This document shows, in pieces, positions 5,514 to 51,265 of a DNA stretch of 64,000 nucleotides. Source of the DNA: Archangiaceae bacterium. GTDB lineage: Bacteria > Myxococcota > Myxococcia > Myxococcales > Myxococcaceae. The stretch spans positions 1-64,000 of the forward strand of contig JAACJQ010000312.1 of the NCBI GenBank assembly GCA_016879935.1. Direction: 5' to 3'. The notes beneath the pieces were generated by a model. That model was given only the letters and a program-made list of their open reading frames with translations. It made no database searches and had not been told where the DNA came from. How positions within the stretch are numbered: position 1 is the stretch's first letter; each line of letters begins with the position of its first letter. The translations under genes were made by a program, and so were the position numbers.

Positions 5514-6404
5514 TCACCAGCGAACTCCTGCGCCGAGCAGCGCGCTCACCCACAGCCCACCGACGGACGACACCGAGGCCCCATCGGCGCGCGCGTCGAG
5601 CCGCCAGATGGCCCAGTCGGCCTCGAGCGCGAAGGAGACGTCGACGGGGCCGATTCCGGCGGCGACTTCACCCAGCGCCGAGGGGCCACCGAGCGCGGCT
5701 GACAACGTTCGTCCCTGCACGGCCGCTGCGTCGTCGGGCGTGCCGATGAGCCGCGCCGCGCCACCACGAAACCCGGCGCCCCCACCGAGCAGAAACCGGC
5801 CGAGGTCGAGGTGCGCCATCACGAAGCCCGCTGCGCCGAGCACGTCTGCCGAGATGCGGCCGACCGAGGTGCGCACCGAGCCCGTCTCGGCACCCGCTTC
5901 GAGGCGAACCCCGAGCGGTCCGATGAGCCGCACGTGCGCCATCAACGCGCCGCCGCCGAGCAGGAGCGTGGCTCCCGGGAAGTAACGGGCGCTGCCGTGA
6001 GCACCGAGCCGAACGCGGGGCCGCCCGAGCTGCTCCACCACCGCGCGCGTCGAGGTCTCTGTCACCGGCGCTGCGCTCACCGTCGGCGTCGGGAGCAGCA
6101 ATTCACTCCAGCTCGCCTCCACCAACTCCACCAGGGCCAGCGCCGCGAAACGTTCGGGCGCCGCCGCGGTGAGGTCTTTCGTCTTCAGCGCGCGGAGCAG
6201 GGTCTTGTTGGTGAGCGGGTCGTCGACCTGCACCTCGAAGCGCTGCTCGGTGCACACGAGGCGCGCGACGACCCGCACGTCTTCGGGGCCGCGGTGCAGC
6301 TCGAGCTCGGCCAGCGCGCGCACCTTGTTCTCGTCGAGCAGACAGCCCGAGACCGTCACGTCGACCGGAGTGGCCGAGAGCAGCACCAACAACAGCGAGG
6401 TCAT
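5514..6404 (-). CDS. Exported protein of the sigma/FecR operon, function unknown
   Basis: A 296-residue protein starting with a short hydrophobic signal (MTSLLLVLLSATPVDV). The first 110 residues look like a small alpha/beta domain (LAELELHRGPEDVRVVARL). After a Pro/Thr linker, the rest alternates Gly-rich hydrophobic strands such as LLLGGGALMAHVRLIGPLGVRLEAGAE, which resemble outer-membrane beta-barrel or solute-binding strands. No named family is recognised. It sits between fecR (61-base gap) and the VWA-like lipoprotein, so it is probably a surface product of the same sigma-controlled unit. Confidence 0.6.
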   Translation of the reverse strand: MTSLLLVLLSATPVDVTVSGCLLDENKVRALAELELHRGPEDVRVVARLVCTEQRFEVQVDDPLTNKTLLRALKTKDLTAAAPERFAALALVELVEASWSELLLPTPTVSAAPVTETSTRAVVEQLGRPRVRLGAHGSARYFPGATLLLGGGALMAHVRLIGPLGVRLEAGAETGSVRTSVGRISADVLGAAGFVMAHLDLGRFLLGGGAGFRGGAARLIGTPDDAAAVQGRTLSAALGGPSALGEVAAGIGPVDVSFALEADWAIWRLDARADGASVSSVGGLWVSALLGAGVRW

Positions 6405-9893: not shown

Positions 9894-11444
9894 ATGTCGA
9901 ACGCACCCGTGCCTGCTGACTTCGCCCACCTCGTCGACCTCGCCGCCGACCTGCTGGGCACCTTCGTTCTCTACGCCACCGACGACTACTTCGCCGAGAA
10001 GGAGAACCTGCTCAAACCGGGCCCCGCCGAGTGGCGCGAAGGCGCGTACACCGACAAGGGCAAGTGGATGGATGGCTGGGAGTCGCAGCGCAAGCGCGAG
10101 CCCGGGCACGACTTCGCCATCGTTCGCCTCGGCGCTCCGGGGCGCATTCACGGCGCGCTCGTCGACACCACGCACTTCAAGGGCAACGCGCCGCAAGAGG
10201 TGGCCCTCGAAGGCATCGTGGCACCACACACGGCGACCCCGGCTCAGCTGCTCGCCTCGAACGAGTGGTTCGAGGTGCTGCCCCGCCAGGCCGTGAAACC
10301 CGACTTCCAGAACGTGCTCAAGGCGAAGACGGCCTCGTCGCGCGTCACCCACGTGCGCCTGCGCATCTACCCCGACGGTGGCGTGGCCCGCCTGCGCGTC
10401 TACGGAGAGGTGGCCGCCGAGCCCCGCACCTTCTGGCGTCGTGGCAGCGTCGACCTCGCGGCGGTGGAGAACGGCGGCACCATCGCCGCGGTGAGCGACC
10501 AGTTCTTCGGGCCTCCGTCGAACCTGCTGCTCCCGGGTCGTGGCGTGAACATGGGTGATGGCTGGGAGACGAAGCGCCGTCGCACGCCGGGCAGCGACTG
10601 GTGCGTCATTCGCCTCGCCCGCCGCGGCGTCGTCGAGCGCATCGAGCTCGAGACCCACTTCTTCAAGGGCAACGCGCCGCAGGCCACGCTCATCGAGGCC
10701 GTCGACGAGGAGCAGCTCGGGCCCGAGGCCGTGCAGGCGATGCTGCGGGAGCCGAAGGGCTGGCAGACGCTGCTCGCGAAGACGCCGCTGGTGCAGCACA
10801 AGCGCCACCAGCTCGAGCCCGACCGGCCGATGACCGTCACCCACCTGCGCGTGCACATCTTCCCGCACGGTGGCGTGAACCGGCTGCGCGTGTTCGGCAC
10901 GTCGGTCGATTCGCCCGCCGAGCGTGACGTGCTCGCGCAGCTGAACGCACTCGACGCCGACGACGCCTCCGAGCTGTTCCTCTCGTGCTGTGGCGCGCGC
11001 GCGTGGGCCGAGACGATGTCGGCGCTGCGGCCGTTCGGCTCGCTCAAAGACCTCTTCGCCGCCGCTGAGAGCGTGTGGTGGAAGCTGGGCACCACCGCCT
11101 GGCTCGACGCGTTCGCCGCGCACCCGCGCATCGGCTCGAAGCAGAAGGGCAAGGCCCAGTCGGCGAAGTCGGCGAGCTGGTCGAAGGGCGAGCAGAAGAA
11201 GGTCGACGACGCCGACAAGGCCGTGCGCGCGCAGCTGGTGAAGGCGAACGAGGCCTACTTCAAGAAGTTCGGCTTCATCTTCATCGTCTTCGCCACGGGC
11301 AAGTCGGCTGGCGAGATGCTGGCCCTCCTCGAGGAGCGCCTGCCGCGCTCGAAGAAGGTCGAAATGGAGACGGCGGCCGTGGAGCAGATGAAGATTACGC
11401 GCCTTCGCCTCGAGAAGTGGCTGTCGGCCGAACTGGAGAAGTGA
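9894..11444 (+). CDS. Allantoicase fused to OHCU decarboxylase
   Basis: A 516-residue bifunctional enzyme of ureide breakdown. Residues 1-335 are allantoicase (allantoate to ureidoglycolate plus urea), built as two repeats. Each repeat has GWESQRKREPGHDFAIVRL- or GWETKRRRTPGSDWCVIRL-type strands and a THFKGNAPQ or THFFKGNAPQ motif. Residues about 340-515 are 2-oxo-4-hydroxy-4-carboxy-5-ureidoimidazoline decarboxylase, with AHPRIG (catalytic His), a WSKGEQ Glu and the GKSAGEMLALLEERL helix. The ATG at 9894 has CAAGG eight bases upstream. The hydroxyisourate hydrolase gene starts three bases after the stop. The two domains catalyse non-consecutive steps, separated by allantoinase. Confidence 0.92.
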   Translation: MSNAPVPADFAHLVDLAADLLGTFVLYATDDYFAEKENLLKPGPAEWREGAYTDKGKWMDGWESQRKREPGHDFAIVRLGAPGRIHGALVDTTHFKGNAPQEVALEGIVAPHTATPAQLLASNEWFEVLPRQAVKPDFQNVLKAKTASSRVTHVRLRIYPDGGVARLRVYGEVAAEPRTFWRRGSVDLAAVENGGTIAAVSDQFFGPPSNLLLPGRGVNMGDGWETKRRRTPGSDWCVIRLARRGVVERIELETHFFKGNAPQATLIEAVDEEQLGPEAVQAMLREPKGWQTLLAKTPLVQHKRHQLEPDRPMTVTHLRVHIFPHGGVNRLRVFGTSVDSPAERDVLAQLNALDADDASELFLSCCGARAWAETMSALRPFGSLKDLFAAAESVWWKLGTTAWLDAFAAHPRIGSKQKGKAQSAKSASWSKGEQKKVDDADKAVRAQLVKANEAYFKKFGFIFIVFATGKSAGEMLALLEERLPRSKKVEMETAAVEQMKITRLRLEKWLSAELEK

Positions 11445-17160: not shown

Positions 17161-19878
17161 GCCTTTTCGTTCAGCGCGCCGACGACGGGCCCGGGCGAGG
17201 AGCACCAAGACGCTGAACGACCACGGGCCAGCACCGGACTGGCAGTCGCAGCCGGCGCGGTAGTTCACGACGGTGGGCTGGGAGCCACCATCGCTCGGCG
17301 CTCCAGCACCCGCGTCGGAAGGTGGGGAGCCCGCGTCGGCGCGGCCCGCGTCGGGTTCGCCTGCATCGAGTTCGCCCGCGTCTTTCGCTCCAGCATCGGG
17401 CTCGACACCCGCATCGGGCTCGAAACCCGCATCGGAGACACCCGCATCGGTGACACCCGCATCGGTGACACCCGCATCGGTGACACCCGCATCGGTGACA
17501 CCCGCATCGGTGACACCTGCATCGGTGACACCTGCATCGGTGACACCTGCATCGGCGACGACACCTGCATCGGCGACGACGCCTCCATCGCCGACGACGC
17601 CAGCATCGCCGACGACACCTGCATCGGCCACGACACCTGCATCGCCGACGACGCCAGCATCAACGACAGCGCCTGCATCGAGTTCGGGAATCCCGCTATC
17701 GAACGGAAAGATGAGCGGCCGGCAAACTCTCGCGTTGTTGCAGAACCCCGACTGGCACTGCCACGACCACTCGCACGGCGCGCCGATGCCTCGGCTCTCG
17801 ATGACCGAGCGGGTGGTCGCGGCTCCGGCGTCGGGGTCGTATCGACCGAACACCCACGTCAGCGTGTCTGGCCCGACGGCGAGGCCGGCGCCGTTGGTGA
17901 ACGAGCCACCCGACACGACGGTCTGCGACGAAGCGTTGACCACGCCACCATCGACCGTGAGGTACAGCGTGACGACAGCCGAGGTCGCGCGAGAAGAGGC
18001 GACGACGGCAGCTCCACCGGGCACCTCGATGACGCTGCCCACATCCCACTCGCCGGTCAGCACGCGGGTCTCGGCGCTCGCCGTGAGGCCGTCCACGCGG
18101 CGCACGAAGACGTCGTACGCATCGGTGTACACGACGAGAAACCCACCCGACTCGTCGCTCACCACGAACGGGTCGACCGAGACCGTCGGCGAGATGAGAA
18201 CGCCTGCGTCGTCGAGTGCGACGAGGTCGCTGGTCAACCGGGTCGCATACACCTGCTGGGCGGGGTTGATGATGGCCAGCCCGAAGCCGCCGTCTCTCGA
18301 CATCGCCAACCTGGGGCGGTCGGGCTTCGGCGAGTTGGCTCCGAAGAGCAGCCGTTGGGTGAACGCGCCCGACGCTTCCTGGCGCAGCGCCCACGCCTCT
18401 TCGTCGGTGGGCGTCTGCTGAACGCCCACCACCACCACTCGGCCGGTGCGGTCGGTCGTCACCGTTCCCGAGGTCAAGAAGCGCGGGAGGGGGAGCGCCG
18501 GGCTCCAGCTCCCCGTCACGTCGAGCCGACGCAGCTCATCTCCCGTCAGCAGCGCCGCGCCCGTGCCGCCCAGACTGGTGATGGAGGGCACCTCGAAGCG
18601 CGACGAGATCGTCACCACATCAGGGCTACCGGCATGCCCGCCGTCGGAGAAGACGCGCCACGCCACCGACTCGGCCTCGGTCGAGGTGAGTCGTTGCCAG
18701 ACGGCCACTGCGCCGCCGTTGACTGGAGCGACCTGCGCGAAGCGATGGCCCGCGCGGCTGCGGTGGAGCTGTGCGGGCGTACCCAACGGCGCCAGCGCCA
18801 ACGATGCCGGCTGCGCCACCACGCCTGCGTTGTAGGTCGACCAGAGCAGCAGCGTGGCCTGCGCCGTCGGTGCGTACGAGGCCACGGTCACCCGGCTGAC
18901 GCCGCTCGCGACTCTGCCCAACCCGGTGAAGCCGCCATCGGTCGATACCCTCCACCCCAGCCCCTGCCCGTCGGTCTGCGTCGCGGTGACGGCGAACATT
19001 CCGTCGCCGAGGTCGACCAGCGCCAGGTTGTCGGTCGGCGTCGCGCCGGCATCGAGCGCGACGGGCCGAATGCCCTGTTGCTCGAACGGCTGCATCAGCA
19101 CGGCCGTCGAGCCGCCATCAGACAGGCGGTACGCGACCCGCCCCTGCCCGTTGGCGTTGAAGGCGAGCCCGTCGAGGTCGACTCGCGTTGGAGCCACCAC
19201 CAGCGGTGGCAGCGCCGTCACCGAGAGAACGCCCGCCACGTTCACCACCCTCGCCTCGGCCAGCGTCGTGCCTTCGACCCAGCTCACCGCCATTGGCGAG
19301 GTGGGGTTCATCGCGTCGGTCAGCGCGCCTCGAACGGGGCTCGCGTAACGCAATTGGTCGGGCCCGAGCGGGACCGAGAGGAGCGGCGTGGCCGGCTGCT
19401 GTACGAGCCACGCGCGGGGCTGAGTGGCCTCGACCGTGACGAAGTAGCCATTGCTCGTCGCGGTGACGCCGGGCGCCCGGCCCTGGCCAAGGTTGCGCGG
19501 CACGAGGGTGGCGGGGTCGAACGTGCCATCGGCGCGAACGACGCGCAGAAACGTCTCGCCATCCATCTCCCACGCCACGACCCACGCGCTCATCGCGGGC
19601 ACCCACGCCACCGAAGGGTCTCGCCCGAACGGCGCCGAGAGGAGCAACCCCTCGGGGTCGTCGACGTTGCCTCCCGGCTGCACGCGCGCGCCGTAGATGC
19701 TCGGCTTGTCGATGCCCATGCGGCCGTACGACACCCAGACCACGAGCGCGCTCACGAGGGGAGGCGCGACGGCCGCGGTGACGTCGTAGGTCTGACCGGG
19801 TGCGACGACGCGGGCTCCGGGCGGCTCGAACGGAAGTTCGGGAGAAACAGCGAGCGCGAGGAGGAGCACACCGACCAC
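17158..19878 (-). CDS. Large surface protein with Asp-Ala-Gly tandem repeats and MYXO-CTERM-like anchor
   Basis: About 906 residues if GTG 19878 is the start: GAGG lies four bases upstream, and the upstream frame is arginine-rich non-coding. MVGVLLLALAVSPELPF is a signal peptide. Residues about 20-690 form a propeller-like region of repeated strands (FAVTATQTDGQGLGWRVSTDGG). A Cys-rich patch follows (CEWSWQCQSGFCNNARVC). Then comes a tail of about 130 residues of D-A-G-V-x repeats. The end (GCDCQSGAGPW, hydrophobic SFSVLVLLAR, then RARRRR) matches a MYXO-CTERM sorting signal: a Cys motif, a short membrane segment and an Arg cluster. In Myxococcota such signals are processed for surface display. 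A short 15-base period makes the tail prone to length change. Confidence 0.8.
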   Translation of the reverse strand: MVGVLLLALAVSPELPFEPPGARVVAPGQTYDVTAAVAPPLVSALVVWVSYGRMGIDKPSIYGARVQPGGNVDDPEGLLLSAPFGRDPSVAWVPAMSAWVVAWEMDGETFLRVVRADGTFDPATLVPRNLGQGRAPGVTATSNGYFVTVEATQPRAWLVQQPATPLLSVPLGPDQLRYASPVRGALTDAMNPTSPMAVSWVEGTTLAEARVVNVAGVLSVTALPPLVVAPTRVDLDGLAFNANGQGRVAYRLSDGGSTAVLMQPFEQQGIRPVALDAGATPTDNLALVDLGDGMFAVTATQTDGQGLGWRVSTDGGFTGLGRVASGVSRVTVASYAPTAQATLLLWSTYNAGVVAQPASLALAPLGTPAQLHRSRAGHRFAQVAPVNGGAVAVWQRLTSTEAESVAWRVFSDGGHAGSPDVVTISSRFEVPSITSLGGTGAALLTGDELRRLDVTGSWSPALPLPRFLTSGTVTTDRTGRVVVVGVQQTPTDEEAWALRQEASGAFTQRLLFGANSPKPDRPRLAMSRDGGFGLAIINPAQQVYATRLTSDLVALDDAGVLISPTVSVDPFVVSDESGGFLVVYTDAYDVFVRRVDGLTASAETRVLTGEWDVGSVIEVPGGAAVVASSRATSAVVTLYLTVDGGVVNASSQTVVSGGSFTNGAGLAVGPDTLTWVFGRYDPDAGAATTRSVIESRGIGAPCEWSWQCQSGFCNNARVCRPLIFPFDSGIPELDAGAVVDAGVVGDAGVVADAGVVGDAGVVGDGGVVADAGVVADAGVTDAGVTDAGVTDAGVTDAGVTDAGVTDAGVTDAGVSDAGFEPDAGVEPDAGAKDAGELDAGEPDAGRADAGSPPSDAGAGAPSDGGSQPTVVNYRAGCDCQSGAGPWSFSVLVLLARARRRRAERKG
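17436..17555. repeat. 15-bp minisatellite in the Asp-Ala-Gly tail
   Basis: About eight near-identical copies of the 15-mer GCATCGGTGACACCC run head to tail, differing mainly by C/T at one position. On the minus strand each encodes T-D-A-G-V. Looser units with 15- and 18-base spacing extend the array on both sides (about 17390-17690). Because the unit is a multiple of three, slippage would change tail length without a frameshift. Confidence 0.9.
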
Positions 19879-32729: not shown

Positions 32730-34772
32730 TCAGGGTTCCGTCGGCGACATCGTGCTCTGCGGCTGGCGGGTCATGCGCGTGACGAAGTCGTTGGCGTTGA
32801 CGTTGGTGTCGCTGCCGTTCCCTGCGTTCTCATCGGAGCCGCCCGCGCCCATCGACGTGCTCGTGGAGGCGGCGTTCGCTTTTCGCTCGAGGCTCGCGGC
32901 GGAGTACGGCGACGACGCGCCCCACGGCCCTGCGACGGTGCTGGCGCCTTCTCCGAACATCGCGCCCGTGCCGTAACCGACCGCGTCGCCGACGAGCGGG
33001 TCGCCTGCGGGCGTCGACGTCGTCGCTCCTGGCAGCACGAGCCGCACCTGCGCGTTCGCGTTCGCCAGGCCCATGGCCTTCGGGTTGTTCGTCGTACTGC
33101 GCGCCACGAAGTCGGCCGCGGGCGTGCCCGTGTAGCCAGTCGCGGTGCCCGACCCGATGAGGAAGTACCCGTGCGCGCGAATCGTCACGCTGGTGCCTGA
33201 GAGCACGTTCACCGTCGACCAGCCCGTCGCCGTCGGCCCACGCGACTGCAGCGCCCAGCCCACGAGCGACACGTCTTCGGCGCCCGGGTTGTAGAGCTCG
33301 ACGAACTCGTCATCGGCGCCGTTGGGTCCCGCGGCCGCCAGCTCGCTGATGACCAGGTCGCAGACATCGCCGCGCGCGTCGCCGTCGGTGTTCGTCTGGT
33401 TCGCGTTCGGGAGCGTCGGACAGTTGTCGCAAGCGTCTCCCTTGCCATCATTGTCACCGTCGGCCTGCGTCAGATTGGCAAGGGTTGGACAATTGTCGCA
33501 GGCGTCACCCTTGCCATCCATGTCGCCATCTTCCTGATTCGGGTTGGGCGTCGCGACGCAGACATCACAGACATCGCCGACACCATCCATGTCGCCGTCG
33601 ACCTGCGTCGGGTTGCCCACGAGCCGGCAGTTGTCACAGGCGTCGCCGAGGCCGTCGCCGTCACCATCGGCCTGCGTCGCGTTCGCGATGACGCGGCAGT
33701 TGTCGACCGCGTTCAGCACGCCGTCGTTGTCGGCGTCGGAGTCGCACACGTCACCCAGCCCATCACGGTCGCCGTCGGCCTGCGTGGGGTTCGCAGCGGT
33801 GGGGCAGTTGTCGCACGCGTCACCTTTGCCATCGCCGTCGGTGTCGGTCTGCGGCGCGCTCGCCAGCGCAGGGCAGGTGTCACAGACGTCGCCGACACCG
33901 TCGCCATCGCCGTCTTCCTGGCCCGGGTTGCTGCGCGCCGCACAGTTGTCGCACGGGCTCGCCACGCCGTCGGAGTCGGGGTCCTCCTGTGAGGCGGTGC
34001 ACTCCGCCATGGTGCCATCGGCGCTGCACGAGGTAACACCGCAGCCCATGCCCGAGGGCAGCGTGCAGCGAACGCCCAGCCCCGTCACGTCGGCCTGCCC
34101 GCAGGCGCCGCAGTTGTTGCGATTGGGGCCGCCGCAGAACGAGGTGATGCCGCTCGACGCGCACTGCAGCGTGCCGGAGCAGCCGCCCGCCGTGCAGGTC
34201 GCTCCGAGGCTGCTGACGTCGGGCCGGTTGCAGACGCCGCAGTTGTTCTTCGGCGCGCCGAGACACGTCGCCGCGGTGCCACCATCGACAGGACACACCG
34301 TGGTGCCCATGCAGCCGTTCGCCGCGACGCATGACTGGTTCAACCCCGCGACGTCGGGCGCATCACAGACGCCGCAGTTGTTCGCCGGGCGGCTGTTGCA
34401 GCGCACCGCTTCACGGCCCGCACACACCCAGGTGCCACACGGCTCGCAGCCGGCGTCGGGCTGATTCGTCAGCGCCGAGCAACCGCCACACGCATTGGTG
34501 ACGCCTTCGTCGACGAGGCCATCACAGTCGTCGTCTTCACCGTTGCAGGTCTCGATTTCAGGCACCTCGGCGCCGACGCACGTGCCCAGGCGACCCATCG
34601 ACGTGCAGGTCGCGAGCCCGGCTTTGCAGTGGCCGACGCCCAGACCGGCATCGGCCGGGTAGCAGGCGACCGTGTCTCCGGGGCTGCAGGCCGTTCCTCC
34701 GGCGGGAGCGCACGCCACCGCACCGAGCACGAGGCTCATCGCGAGGCAGGAGGCGCCGAACCGGAACGGCAT
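32730..34772 (-). CDS. Cys-rich lipoprotein with MopE-like motif, TSP type-3 repeats and lamin-tail domain
   Basis: About 680 residues. The signal is [21 protein letters not shown]. Residues about 50-75 hold [17 protein letters not shown], the MopE-like metal-binding motif. Residues about 100-260 are Cys-rich repeats (NNCGVC, then DVSSLGATC). Residues about 270-480 are around nine thrombospondin type-3 repeats ([15 protein letters not shown]), which bind calcium. Residues about 485-600 are a lamin-tail domain ([25 protein letters not shown]). The tail is Ser/Asn-rich. It is probably a calcium-stabilised surface protein. The start at 34772 places the signal at the N-terminus. Confidence 0.85.
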
Positions 34773-37886: not shown

Positions 37887-38013
37887 GCGGTGATTCACCA
37901 TCTCCCTCAGGCTGCCACCCTCCGCCGACAGCCCTGAATGGTCGTTTTTCACCATCGAGAGGCGACTTGTGACCATGGTCACGGCGGCGGCTGCGCACTA
38001 CTTCTCACGCACC

Positions 38014-38853
38014 ATGAAAACACTGCTCGCTGCGCTGCTCTTCGCCGTTCCCGCTTTCGCTGCTCCGCTCAAGGTGACGCCCATCGTCGGCTCACCGCAG
38101 GGCTTCTTCGTCACCTCGACGCTCGTGACCGGTGACAAGGAGGCGCTCGTCATCGACCCCGCCTTCACGCTCGCCGATGCGCATCGGGTCGCTGCTGCCG
38201 TGCTCGACTCGGGCAAGAATCTCACCACCATCTTCGTGACGCACGGGCACCCCGACCACTACTTCGGTGCCGTCGTGCTGAAGGCGGCCTTCCCGCAGGC
38301 GAAGCTCGTCGCGAGGCCCGAGACCATCAAAGACATCGAGAAGTCGTGGAAGGGCAAGGTCGCGCAGTGGGGCCCGATGTACGGCGCGAACCTGACCGAC
38401 GCTCCGGTGATTCCCGAGGCGCTCTCGGGAGACTCGCTCACCGTCGACGGCGAGACGCTCACGCTGCACGGCGGCGTGCAGGGCGACGACGGGCACAACA
38501 CGTACGTGTGGATTCCCTCGGCGAAGGCGGTCGTGGCGGGCGACACCCTCTACAGCGGCGTGCACGTGTGGACTGCCGAGACGAAGGCCGCGAACCGCAC
38601 CGCGTGGCTCGCGACGCTCGACGCCATCGAGAAGCTCAAGCCCGAGCTCGTCATCGCCGGCCACAAGGTGCCCGACGCGAAGGATGATGTGTCGGCCATC
38701 ACCTTCACGCGCGACTACTTGAAGGCGTTCGACGTCGCCGTGAAGGGCTCGAAGACGGCGGCCGAGGCGCTCGAGAAGGTGAAGGCGAAGTACCCTTCTG
38801 CCGCGCTCGACGTCATCGCGCGCATCGGCACCGAAGCGCAGTACGCGAAGTGA
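38014..38853 (+). CDS. Exported metallo-beta-lactamase-fold hydrolase
   Basis: About 279 residues. MKTLLAALLFAVPAFAAP is a clear signal peptide, so the enzyme is periplasmic or secreted. The metal site is FVTHGHPDHYFG (HxHxDH), followed by GVQGDDGHNTYV (His), VAGDTLYSG (Asp) and VIAGHKVP (His). It resembles the class of secreted MBL-fold lactonase or hydrolase enzymes; the substrate is unknown. ATG 38014 places the signal at the N-terminus. It is followed after six bases by an AraC-type regulator that may respond to its substrate. Confidence 0.85.
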   Translation: MKTLLAALLFAVPAFAAPLKVTPIVGSPQGFFVTSTLVTGDKEALVIDPAFTLADAHRVAAAVLDSGKNLTTIFVTHGHPDHYFGAVVLKAAFPQAKLVARPETIKDIEKSWKGKVAQWGPMYGANLTDAPVIPEALSGDSLTVDGETLTLHGGVQGDDGHNTYVWIPSAKAVVAGDTLYSGVHVWTAETKAANRTAWLATLDAIEKLKPELVIAGHKVPDAKDDVSAITFTRDYLKAFDVAVKGSKTAAEALEKVKAKYPSAALDVIARIGTEAQYAK

Positions 38854-38859
38854 GGCGTG

Positions 38860-39726
38860 ATGGGTGACGTCGTCGAGCTGGGGTTTCGCAGCAGCGTTCG
38901 CCCGGGGCTGGGCTTCGAGGTGATGCGGTTCTCGGAGCTCCGGCGGCGTACGCTCACCCACGCGCTCGACGGCCTCACCCGCCCGCAGTTTCACCTGGTG
39001 GCGGCCTGTCTCACCGGGCGCACGCGGCATCGGGTCGACTTCGAGCGGCACCTGCTGCGCCCTCGCGACCTCGTCTTCGTCGCGCCCGGCCGCGTGCAGG
39101 GCTTCGACCCGACGCCGGGGCTCGAGCTGTCGCTGCTGCTCTTCACGCCCGAGTTCCTGCAGCTCTCGGCGGATCCACGGTTGGTCGACCCGCTCCGCGG
39201 AGCGCGCGTGTTGTCGCCGTTCTGGAAGACGCCGGTGCTGAACGTACCGAAGGCGCTGTGGCCCGACGTGACGGGGCTGATCAGCCAGCTCGAGCGCGAG
39301 TACGCACGGCCGGCCGATGGCGTTCAGACGGCGGTGCTCTCGTCACTCCTTCGGGCGTTGCTGCTGCAGCTCGAGCGGCTCGTGACGAACGCCGAGGGCG
39401 CGTCGACGGCGCCACCTGCGCTCGAGCGGTTCCGGGAGACGCTGGAGCAGGGCCTCGAGACGAGCCGCTCGGTCGAGCACTACGCCAGGCTCGCGAAGGT
39501 GACGCCGAGAACGTTGAACCGGTTGACGCTCCGGCACCTCGGCGTGGGCGCGAAGCAGACCATCGACACGCGCGTGGTGCTCGAGCTCAAACGCCTGCTC
39601 GCCTACAGCGACCTCTCGGTGAAGGAGCTCTCGGCCCGCTTCGGCTTCGACGAGCCGACGAACCTGGTGAAGTTCTTCAAGCGGCACACCGGCACGACAC
39701 CGCAGCGGTTTCGCGACGCGCGCTGA
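38860..39726 (+). CDS. AraC-family transcriptional regulator
   Basis: About 288 residues. The N-terminal half is a cupin-like sensor (FHLVAACLTGRTRHRVDFERHLLRPRDLVFV). The C-terminal half is an HTH_18 pair: HYARLAKVTPRTLNRLTLRHLG, then LSVKELSARFGFDEPTNLVKFFKRHTGTTPQRFR. GTG 38857 and ATG 38860 are both possible; GAGG sits just upstream. It follows the exported MBL hydrolase gene by six bases, suggesting it controls that gene or is co-expressed with it. The 3' end recurs in degenerate form downstream (39692..39918). Confidence 0.88.
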   Translation: MGDVVELGFRSSVRPGLGFEVMRFSELRRRTLTHALDGLTRPQFHLVAACLTGRTRHRVDFERHLLRPRDLVFVAPGRVQGFDPTPGLELSLLLFTPEFLQLSADPRLVDPLRGARVLSPFWKTPVLNVPKALWPDVTGLISQLEREYARPADGVQTAVLSSLLRALLLQLERLVTNAEGASTAPPALERFRETLEQGLETSRSVEHYARLAKVTPRTLNRLTLRHLGVGAKQTIDTRVVLELKRLLAYSDLSVKELSARFGFDEPTNLVKFFKRHTGTTPQRFRDAR

Positions 39727-39918
39727 GCAGGAGCTCCGGCCTCGACGAGCCGTGCAGCGCAAGGACACCGCAGCGCACCTCGTGACGTTCGCGCACCATG
39801 CCACAGCGATTCCGCGGCGTGCGCTGAGCAGGCGCTCTGCGGCAGCTCGCGACGTTCTTCGAGCGGCACCACGCCACGGCAATTTCCTGAGGCGCGCCGA
39901 GCGCAGACGTCCCAGCAA
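39692..39918 (+). repeat. Degenerate tandem echoes of the AraC gene 3' end
   Basis: The last 44 bases around the AraC stop (39692-39735) recur at 39794-39837 with nine mismatches (80% identity, no gaps). The second copy still reads T-M-P-Q-R-F-R-G-V-R-stop against T-T-P-Q-R-F-R-D-A-R-stop, and several differences are synonymous. A third copy near 39857-39910 starts GTTCTTCGAGCGGCACC, matching the gene's GTTCTTCAAGCGGCACA. A fragment GACACCGCAGCG (about 39764) is a further partial copy. The gap 39727-39970 holds no intact gene. Confidence 0.7.
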
Positions 39919-39970
39919 GAAGCGACGGCTCTGCGTCGGCCTTGTTCGAGCCAGGAATGGCGTCTGCCAC

Positions 39971-40702
39971 TCAGAGCTTCGAGAAGTACTCGACGACGGT
40001 CTGCTTGAACTCCGGCCTGCTGTAACCGTCGGCCTGCCGCGTCTCGAGCATCTTCACGAGCGCCGCCGCCGCGTCGTCTGCGCTCTGCGCATTCGGCAAC
40101 GCCCGCGAATCGACGCCACCGTGGAGCGCATTCTTTCCGAAGTCGGTCGCCACCACGCCGGGCGAGAAGAGCGACACCGTGATGCCGGGGTGCGTGGGCG
40201 CCAACTCGGCGCGCAGGTTGGCCGTGAGCGCGTTCAAGAAGTGCTTCGCGCCGCTGTACGCCGAGCGCTGCGCCGCGAAGGGCACGCGCCCCAGCATCGA
40301 CGAGACGTTGACGAGGTGGCCCGCGTTGCGCGCCTTGAAGTGCGGCAACACCGCCTGCATGCCGTAGAGCGCGCTCTTCACGTTCACCGTCATCATCTCG
40401 TCGACGTCGGCGTCGCTCAGCTCCGACGGCATTCGCGAGATGCCGCGGCCCACGTTGTTCACCCACACGTCGATGCGGCCGTGCTGCGCGAGCGCCGTGG
40501 CGACGACCCGCTCGACGTCACTGCGGCGGGTGACGTCGGCGACGATGGTCTGCGCTCCACCACCCGCGAGGCTCACCGACGAGAGCGCCTCGGCCCGCCG
40601 CGCCACCAGCACCGGCCGCGCTCCCTTCGCGAACACCTGCTTCGCCAACGCCTCCCCGATGCCTGCGCTCGCGCCCGTGATGACGATGACCTGGTCGTTC
40701 AT
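39971..40702 (-). CDS. Short-chain dehydrogenase/reductase
   Basis: A 243-residue classical SDR using NAD(P). It has the cofactor motif TGASAGIG (about 9-16), an acidic ADVTRRSD turn, the NNVG motif after strand 4, the catalytic Ser in VNVSSMLG and YSGAK (YxxxK). The C-terminal HPGITVSLFSPGVVATDFG is typical of the PG motif region. The substrate is unknown. It is divergent from the zinc-ribbon membrane protein gene, with about 87 bases between them. Confidence 0.92.
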   Translation of the reverse strand: MNDQVIVITGASAGIGEALAKQVFAKGARPVLVARRAEALSSVSLAGGGAQTIVADVTRRSDVERVVATALAQHGRIDVWVNNVGRGISRMPSELSDADVDEMMTVNVKSALYGMQAVLPHFKARNAGHLVNVSSMLGRVPFAAQRSAYSGAKHFLNALTANLRAELAPTHPGITVSLFSPGVVATDFGKNALHGGVDSRALPNAQSADDAAAALVKMLETRQADGYSRPEFKQTVVEYFSKL

Positions 40703-40789
40703 GGCGCGCGTTGTACGTCATCACCCACGCTCATGCCGGGGCACTTCGGGCGATGAAGTCGAAGACGTTGTGGTGCTACAGCCGCGCGC

Positions 40790-41167
40790 GTGCCGACCCG
40801 AAACGTGCCCGTGCGGTTGAGTCTGGGCTCCGAGCAGCCCACGCAGGCCACCGTCGTCATCGCCGACTGGACGATGCTCGAGCGCCTGCGCCGCGGCGCG
40901 ATGGTGCTGGGCCTCGCGTGGGGCGCCGCCGGCTTCAGCATCGTGATTCCAGTCCTGCACTTCGTGCTCCCGCCGATTCTGCTGCTGTTGGGGCCCATTC
41001 TCTGCGTGTGGCGGGTGCTGACACGCTCGTCGTTCAAGGAGGGCACCGGCCCCTGCCCGCGCTGCAAGCCGGAGCGGACGATGACGATGGGCGGCAAGGT
41101 CGAGCCCGAGACGAACGTCTTCTGCGACGGCTGCGGCAATCAACTCACGCTCAAGTTGCAAAGTTGA
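40790..41167 (+). CDS. Small membrane protein with zinc-ribbon-like tail
   Basis: A 125-residue protein from GTG 40790. A hydrophilic N-terminus precedes two close membrane segments (AMVLGLAWGAAGFSIVIPVL and LPPILLLLGPILCVW). The C-terminal 50 residues carry CPRC and CDGC pairs about 25 residues apart, a zinc-ribbon or rubredoxin-like knuckle. The role is unknown; such proteins may act as small membrane-bound metal or nucleic-acid adaptors. Just after the stop a short sequence of the gene end is repeated (41156-41192). Confidence 0.7.
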   Translation: MPTRNVPVRLSLGSEQPTQATVVIADWTMLERLRRGAMVLGLAWGAAGFSIVIPVLHFVLPPILLLLGPILCVWRVLTRSSFKEGTGPCPRCKPERTMTMGGKVEPETNVFCDGCGNQLTLKLQS

Positions 41168-49342: not shown

Positions 49343-51265
49343 ATGTCTCGACTTCGTTGGACCATGGCGTTCGTTGCTTTGACGGTGGGCTGCACGTGCG
49401 GCGGCGGCACGACCCGCGTGCGGCCGGAGATCGAAGTGCAGCCCGGCTCCATCGACTTCGGCACGGTGGCGCTCGGAGGCTCCACGACGAGAAAGGTGAC
49501 CGTCTTCAGTCGTGGCACGGTCGCGCTCACGATTCAGTCGGCGAGCGTTCAGGGTGATGCGGCGTTCACGGCGAGCGGGCCTGCCATGCGCAACCTCTCG
49601 CCTTCGACGTCCACGGAGGTCGAGGTGACCTTCCGGCCGGGAACGCTCGGGCCGAGGTCTGCGCGGCTGATCATCACCAGCGACGCCGTGAACGCTCCAG
49701 AGGTGTTGGTGTCGCTCGTCGGTGATTCGCTGCCGAGCGGAACGGGCGGAGGCAGCGCAGGTGGAATGGCTGGCGGATCTGCTGGTGGCGTTGCAGGCGG
49801 AACCGCTGGCGGATCAGCAGGTGGCTCCGCTGGTGGAACAGCTGGCGGAACGGGTGGCGGATCAGCCGGTGGATCCGCGGGTGGAATGGCTGGATCAGCC
49901 GGTGGCTCCGCGGGTGGAACGGCCGGTGGATCAGGTGGCGGATCCGCTGGCGGCACCTCCGTCGACTCAGGCATCGACGCTGGAGCGGACGCGGGCATCG
50001 ACGCAGGCATCGGTGGCGCCGACGCGGGAGTCGATGCCGGCTGCAGTCTGCTCCTCTGCGGTCGAGCGCACGCGGGCGTCACCTGCGCGGTCGCCACCCA
50101 GGGCACCATTGGTCCGTTCGGCGGAACGTGGGCCACGAGTCTCTTCAACGACGCGACGGGCTGGAACACGGTCAGCACCGGCCGCACCGTGACCTTCGGA
50201 GACGTCGACGGCGATGGACGCGGCGACGCGTGTGGTCGTGGCACGCTCGGCGTCAACTGCGCGCTCAACTCCGGCACGACGTTCGGCGCGATGCAGCTGT
50301 GGGCGCCCGAGTTCTCCGACGCCATCGGTTGGGGCGCGGCTGCCCGCTACTACTCCACGATTCAGCTCGCCGACCCGAACGGAGACGGCAGGAAAGACGT
50401 CTGCGGCCGCAGCGATGCAGGCGTGGTGTGCGCGCTCGGCGACGCAGGCGTCTGGCGCTCGACGAGCTTCAACGACGCCACCTCGTGGGGAGACCCGCGC
50501 TACTTCGCGAACGTTCAGTTCGTCGACGTCACGGGCGATGGCAAGGCCGACGCTTGCGGGCGCGGCATCTTCGGCATCTCGTGCTCGAGCTCCACGGGTT
50601 CGGGCTTCGGGGTCTACACGTCGTGGACGACGGAGTTCAGCGACGCGCTCAGCTGGGGCACGAACGCGGCGCTGTACCAGACGGTTCACTTCCCCGACGT
50701 GAACGGTGACGGCAAAGCCGACGTCTGCGGGCGCGGCACGCTGGGCATCATCTGTGCGTTGTCAGACGGCACGCGCTTCCTCTCCTCATCGCAGTGGTCG
50801 ACCGACTTCTCCGACGCCGCAGGGTGGACGCAGCGCTCGCAGTTCTCGACGATTCAGTTCCCCGACCTCGACGGCGATGGAAAGGCCGACGTCTGCGGGC
50901 GCGCGGCGGCGGGCCTGTTGTGCGCGATGTCAGACGGCACGCACTTCGTGTCACCGACGGCGACGCAGCTCTTCAGCGACGCGACTGGCTGGGGCGCCTC
51001 ACCTTCGACCTCGGTGACGATTCAGTTCGCCGACCTCGACGGAGACGGACAGCTCGACGTCTGCGGTCGCGGCACCGTGGGCGTCTTCTGCGCGCTCCGT
51101 CAGCAGGGAACGTTCGGCTCGCTGTTCCTCACGCAGGCGCTCGCGACGGACACGAACGGTTGGGCCGACGACACGGTGTACCCGACGCTCCGCTTCGTTT
51201 CGAACGGGCCGCGCTCGTGTCGTCTGGGGCCGTCTGCGACGCCCGCAGCACGCGTTGGCCCGTGA
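49343..51265 (+). CDS. FG-GAP/VCBS-repeat lipoprotein with Gly-rich linker
   Basis: About 640 residues. MSRLRWTMAFVALTVGC is a lipoprotein signal. Residues about 30-130 are an ASH/choice-of-anchor-like beta domain (GSIDFGTVALGGSTTRKVTVF). Residues about 132-210 are a GGSAGG-type linker, then Asp-Ala-Gly repeats. Residues about 235-620 form repeats of about 55 residues of the FG-GAP type, each with a calcium-loop-like core (FGDVDGDGRGDACGRGTLGVNC, FPDLDGDGKADVCGRAAAG) and paired cysteines. It is a probable surface propeller in which the linker projects the domain away from the membrane. Start 49343 fits the signal. Confidence 0.85.
   Translation: MSRLRWTMAFVALTVGCTCGGGTTRVRPEIEVQPGSIDFGTVALGGSTTRKVTVFSRGTVALTIQSASVQGDAAFTASGPAMRNLSPSTSTEVEVTFRPGTLGPRSARLIITSDAVNAPEVLVSLVGDSLPSGTGGGSAGGMAGGSAGGVAGGTAGGSAGGSAGGTAGGTGGGSAGGSAGGMAGSAGGSAGGTAGGSGGGSAGGTSVDSGIDAGADAGIDAGIGGADAGVDAGCSLLLCGRAHAGVTCAVATQGTIGPFGGTWATSLFNDATGWNTVSTGRTVTFGDVDGDGRGDACGRGTLGVNCALNSGTTFGAMQLWAPEFSDAIGWGAAARYYSTIQLADPNGDGRKDVCGRSDAGVVCALGDAGVWRSTSFNDATSWGDPRYFANVQFVDVTGDGKADACGRGIFGISCSSSTGSGFGVYTSWTTEFSDALSWGTNAALYQTVHFPDVNGDGKADVCGRGTLGIICALSDGTRFLSSSQWSTDFSDAAGWTQRSQFSTIQFPDLDGDGKADVCGRAAAGLLCAMSDGTHFVSPTATQLFSDATGWGASPSTSVTIQFADLDGDGQLDVCGRGTVGVFCALRQQGTFGSLFLTQALATDTNGWADDTVYPTLRFVSNGPRSCRLGPSATPAARVGP
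49740..49959 (+). repeat. Gly-rich imperfect nucleotide repeat encoding the GGSAGG linker
   Basis: Short units of the GGTGGATCAGCAGGTGG type repeat imperfectly, encoding G-G-S-A-G-G or G-G-M/T/V-A-G-G. The unit is in phase with codons. Unit boundaries drift, unlike the near-exact minisatellite at 17436. Confidence 0.85.

Follow-up and report, generated by a model that had tools for sequence, protein, structure and literature searches.

Several described systems can be compared with short direct repeats at the end of a bacterial gene. The MIRU repeats of mycobacteria are direct repeats of tens of nucleotides, some of which overlap stop codons, and they constitute one dispersed family. Shufflon-type silent 3′ cassettes are alternative gene ends located downstream of a gene. 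The partial tandem duplications and non-coding minisatellites of prokaryotes are head-to-tail arrays at a single locus, with units ranging from tens of nucleotides to approximately 200 nt. In PMC6749651, the satellites of some species are described as mutually unrelated and scattered over the genome, and a repeat length divisible by three is taken to indicate a coding array; the term “stop codon” is absent from its main text. PMC8161180 has zero occurrences of “stop codon”, “overlap”, “intergenic” and “52 bp”. No report of tandem arrays straddling bacterial stop codons was found among the titles and abstract openings listed, and PMC3298695 contains the phrase “overlapping the stop codon”.

Here we analyzed a locus in a 64,000-nt stretch of DNA from an Archangiaceae bacterium (contig JAACJQ010000312.1), hereafter the window, in which the end of an AraC-family regulator gene recurs downstream of its own stop codon. 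The copies very probably belong to the partial tandem duplications of prokaryotes, with which they share the head-to-tail order, the single locus and the unit size. Unlike the MIRU repeats, the unit has no strong second site in its own genome, where a search with 39638–39920 gave a next match of 23 nt at E 0.008 (best 40 of 218 candidates scored); a dispersed, MIRU-like family was hence set aside, as the same unit was not seen at many loci among them. Unlike the prokaryote satellites of PMC6749651, the unit has decayed strongly and spans a stop codon.

Repeat Units at the AraC Gene End

The AraC gene carries a C-terminal AraC helix-turn-helix domain (PF12833, 69.6 bits against a cut-off of 33.6) and is paired with an upstream metallo-beta-lactamase-fold gene, a pairing also seen in a relative (orthologous locus L006). 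The features of the locus are as follows.

37969–38853, + strand: metallo-beta-lactamase-fold gene, upstream partner of the AraC gene (Lactamase_B, 2.7e-24)
38857–39726, + strand: AraC-family regulator gene, open frame of 289 aa, likely source of the duplicated end (HTH_18, 2.8e-19; AraC_binding, 1.8e-5)
39638–39736, + strand: unit 1, the AraC gene from approximately codon 261 through its stop, with the next 10 nt of flank (self-comparison)
39727–39970: intergenic stretch of 244 nt, flanked by the convergent AraC and SDR genes and containing units 2 and 3
39733–39837, + strand: unit 2, a decayed second copy (90% over the first 20 nt, 80% over the last 45 nt)
39838–39900, + strand: unit 3, a weaker third copy with NLVKFFKRH and TTPxxF parts, its stop lost (score 37)
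39971–40702, − strand: short-chain dehydrogenase (SDR) gene, convergent to the AraC gene (adh_short, 1e-48)

A sequence-only reading had claimed that the last 44 bases around the stop recur about 100 bases on at 80% identity, and had proposed a third, weaker copy. Both claims were borne out, the second less securely. The 45 nt at 39692–39736, comprising the last 35 nt of the AraC gene with its stop and 10 nt beyond, were repeated directly at 39793–39837 with a lag of 101, at 80% and without gaps, and self-comparison placed a third member in register at 39866–39910 (62%). The repeat also extends upstream of this match. The FGFDEP codons at 39638–39657, which that reading had not included, recur at 39733–39752 (90% over 20 nt), and downstream matches to the NLVKFF part at 39660 lie at 39775 and 39842. 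The middle part, 39638–39691, on its own recurs downstream with a score of 28, which none of 1000 shuffles reached. Since pieces of the approximately 55 nt before the 45-nt match recur in the same order, the unit size was evaluated as approximately 100 nt. Units 1 and 2 agree at both ends, and between its two conserved parts unit 2 carries approximately 20 additional nt and lacks 14 nt relative to unit 1. In unit 3 the first ~18 nt are absent, and it carries indels besides its lost stop. All copies lie on the same strand, head-to-tail and in order, with the coding tail and the post-stop flank repeated together.

The direct repeat downstream of the AraC stop is real, and copy 2 is above chance. 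Gapped local alignment of the gene end (39607–39740) with 39741–39970 gave a score of 46, which was matched by none of 2000 dinucleotide shuffles (maximum 36) and by none of 2492 pieces of 230 nt from elsewhere in the window, both strands included (maximum 33); self-alignment against shuffled sequence, the check named in the sequence-only reading, thus came out in favor of the repeat. Copy 2 alone (39741–39838) scored 45 (0 of 2000 shuffles, maximum 41; 0 of 2499 window pieces). The score of 37 for copy 3 alone was equaled by one of 2000 shuffles (maximum 38) and by none of 2499 window pieces (maximum 33). A null of 20,000 pairs, in which the end of one gene was aligned with the downstream DNA of another in the same genome, had a maximum of 42. 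Tandem Repeats Finder called no array at the AraC/SDR locus, even at a score of 30. When the window was scanned against itself without gaps (lags 20–400, score ≥34), 50 hits were obtained, mostly in long repeat tracts elsewhere. These tracts lie at 17422–17680, 33357–33983, 34076–34383, 49737–49970 and 50299–51094, all in called genes, and the arrays at 17541–17680 and 49774–49953 repeat every 54 and 48 nt, respectively.

Copy 2 translates as TMPQRFRGVR-stop, as compared with TTPQRFRDAR-stop in the AraC gene. The earlier description of this copy as T-x-P-Q-R-F-R-x-x-R-stop hence stands, but its description of the changes as synonymous does not, as over 33 nt four codons differ synonymously and three replace the residue, with the differences falling on third (five), second (three) and first (zero) codon positions. 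The in-register translation of copy 3 is TTPRQF, which is a common form among AraC-family proteins. Because the changes could not be polarized, we infer, rather than observe, that such partial codon conservation is what would be expected if the gene itself changed mostly at third positions after the duplication.

Comparison with Other AraC Genes and Relatives

The host AraC gene scored 45 to copy 2 and 37 to copy 3, above all 62 other AraC-type loci from its own genome and relatives (some of them the same gene twice), whose best scores were 30 and 32, respectively. As a control, the upstream lactamase-fold gene scored 25 against the downstream stretch, with 324 of 1000 shuffles as good. The SDR gene was rejected as a source of the copies, its + strand scoring 21 against 39737–39970 with 949 of 1000 shuffles as good. 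Against a source in the gene end alone, the AraC body (38857–39637) also aligned to the sequence past the stop, with a score of 37 (2 of 1000 shuffles as good). This match pairs 39001–39052 with 39814–39870, crossing the boundary between copies 2 and 3 and lying out of gene order, and its bases mostly align to the gene tail too; because of it, unit 3 is less secure and is not uniquely assigned.

One orthologous locus was found (L006, with L035 taken as the same contig from their common length of 41,136 bases; G010, a metagenome-assembled genome of the same family), in which the AraC protein is 63% identical and the metallo-beta-lactamase-fold protein 77% identical over residues 35–294. The AraC stop there ends at 5855 and is followed, at 5867, by an ATG lying in a frame that extends to 6694. 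The AraC gene is single at this locus, where neither a second AraC reading frame nor a tail copy was seen (echo score 20 against both the next 250 nt and the next 600 nt), and the AraC tails of six further relatives gave echo scores of 14–22. The sequence-only reading had suggested searching relatives for intact tandem AraC paralogues, and none were seen at this locus; with a single orthologous locus to compare, the event can be neither dated nor polarized. Matches to the AraC protein at E 1e-15 were present in at least 3 of 96 family genomes including its own, one in each (often with 25 candidates scored), and the other AraC matches in its own genome were 25–33% identical, with a best E of 1.6e-5.

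A DNA search with 39638–39990 in 92 family genomes (best ≤7 candidates each) gave matches at E ≤0.01 in at least 44 of the 92, including its own. The orthologue matched at E 3.2e-9, and the matches apart from this one and the genome itself were taken as chance; one of them was in G093 (E 7.4e-5). A match in G064 (80% over 54 nt, E 4.6e-5) was set aside, as by eye it lies in a long stretch with no visible AraC features. The second own-genome AraC gene, L104, was also rejected, since its echo score of 35 compares with a 99.9% point of 34–35 in the null and its match stops before the stop codon. An AraC helix-turn-helix fragment with an internal TGA, perhaps a decayed AraC gene, was observed at L123 (G000:C379:5323-5529).

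Stop-Straddling Arrays Elsewhere in the Genome

Other gene ends were examined in 81 stretches of this genome totaling 1,597,119 bases, window included, or approximately one-sixth of the genome; the 80 further stretches are contigs drawn from earlier searches of this analysis and hence not a random sample. Genes were called crudely, as ORFs of at least ~80 codons scored by GC3 minus GC2, and 303 ends with ≥120 nt of free downstream DNA, from 1314 called genes, entered a 3′ scan. Six of the 303 scored ≥36, and five reached 45. The clear stop-straddlers were the AraC locus, L084 and L159. L086 was set aside because its ORF is composed of repeats, and L150 and L152 were not counted because their matches end before the stop. 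Tandem Repeats Finder revealed a fourth stop-straddler, L087, which was not among the matches listed in the 3′ scan. On the 5′ side, six of 336 scored ≥36 and five reached 45, several of which resemble internal repeats of genes whose start was misplaced.

Relative to the end of the stop, the L084 repeats cover −35 to +71 at lag 150 and −35 to +11 at lag 82, those of L159 cover −37 to +22 at lags 113 and 169 and −34 to +22 at lag 57, and that of L087 covers −79 to +25 at lag 121. L084 (G000:C266, approximately 10126–10402, minus strand) consists of four head-to-tail units with lags of 82, 68 and 82, the first being the gene’s own end; the units start within the final 35 nt of that gene, and each has a perfect or imperfect palindrome GTGAATCGATTCAC near the stop. 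L159 (G000:C310, 15571–15800) contains approximately four copies of 56–57-nt units with 93–94% matches, and its array begins in what by eye is the hydrophobic C-terminal tail of a Ser/Thr kinase-like protein. L087 (G000:C119, 15353–15583) is a 121-nt tandem duplication with 94–97% matches across the end of a called gene, extending as far as the called start of the gene that follows it on this strand. The arrays at L066 and L080 touch the stop by 4 nt.

The Tandem Repeats Finder periods of L084, L159 and L087 are 82, 56 and 121, none of which is divisible by three. Among 42 arrays with a period ≥30 and a score ≥100, 31 lay wholly in called genes, and all 31 had periods in multiples of three; so did four of the remaining 11, including L066 (108 nt). 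The L084, L159 and L087 arrays are younger than the AraC copies. Under permissive settings, 31 of 2080 arrays straddled a called 3′ end as compared with 36 straddling a called 5′ end, so that no preference for stops is apparent. Because the gene is left intact, stop-straddling duplications are tolerated, and this sufficiently explains the survival of the arrays. It is improbable that a common process in this Myxococcaceae lineage repeatedly seeds tandem amplification at gene 3′ ends, duplicating 55–120 nt across stops; if it did, the AraC copies would be an old case of it, with three younger cases known in 1.6 Mb.

Origin of the Copies

The copies very probably represent a partial tandem duplication of the AraC gene’s own end that has since decayed. 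A stretch of approximately 100 nt, from the last helix-turn-helix to 10 nt past the AraC stop, would have been duplicated head-to-tail, probably twice, and we infer replication slippage or recombination between short repeats as the mechanism. Such an event would have cost nothing, since the first unit still completes the AraC gene, while the extra units would sit in untranslated DNA, presumably without function, and decay by substitutions and indels. The indels needed to align unit 2 with unit 1, the weakness of unit 3, the match of the gene body and the lack of a Tandem Repeats Finder call count against this reading.

The sequence-only reading had offered either repeated copying of gene ends or tandem paralogues that had lost their bodies and survived as remnants. 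The former is supported, as head-to-tail copying of approximately 100 nt, and the latter is unlikely. Two whole tandem AraC paralogues that once lay downstream and left only their ends would account for a copy 2 that still reads as an AraC end with four synonymous codon changes, for the in-register TTPRQF of copy 3 and for the weak match of the gene body. However, no collinear body remnant lies between the tails, the sole match being out of order; the copies start within the gene and include the post-stop flank, and this reading requires two deletions that both stopped within one region of the gene. The distant AraC matches in the same genome, the one-apiece close matches across the family and the single AraC gene of the orthologous locus also argue against former paralogues, as do the younger arrays described above, whose units are plainly gene-end fragments. 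The comparisons at the AraC locus and the orthologue without a copy hence favor duplication of the gene’s own end.

Two functional readings are less probable still. A functional RNA or terminator element made of the repeats, though in keeping with their position between convergent gene ends and with one weak terminator-like site on the minus strand (39938–39923; shuffles mean 0.2), is very improbable: that site lies outside the copies, 39727–39970 does not fold more strongly than expected (z −0.41, with 74 of 200 shuffles folding equally well), and no Rfam family reached its gathering score in 38800–40800, where one match, at 40297–40500, was far below it. It is hardly conceivable that the downstream ends are silent 3′ cassettes kept for recombinational swapping of the regulator’s C-terminus. 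Like shufflon cassettes, they are extra gene ends located 3′ of the gene, and copy 2 has an open end with different residues, but the repeats are short, diverged and decayed, copy 3 has indels and no stop, and no recombinase family was matched at E 0.001 among the 11 neighboring proteins scanned (34.8–46.9 kb; two of them match nothing).

The AraC copies are thus most likely an old, ordinary partial tandem duplication in decay, and no function was found for them. The locus documents the decay of a harmless gene-end duplication into intergenic DNA, which by itself means little. Four stop-straddling arrays in about one-sixth of the genome could, however, help to trace how tandem duplications decay, and their pattern could be used to test whether gene 3′ ends merely tolerate duplications or also attract them.
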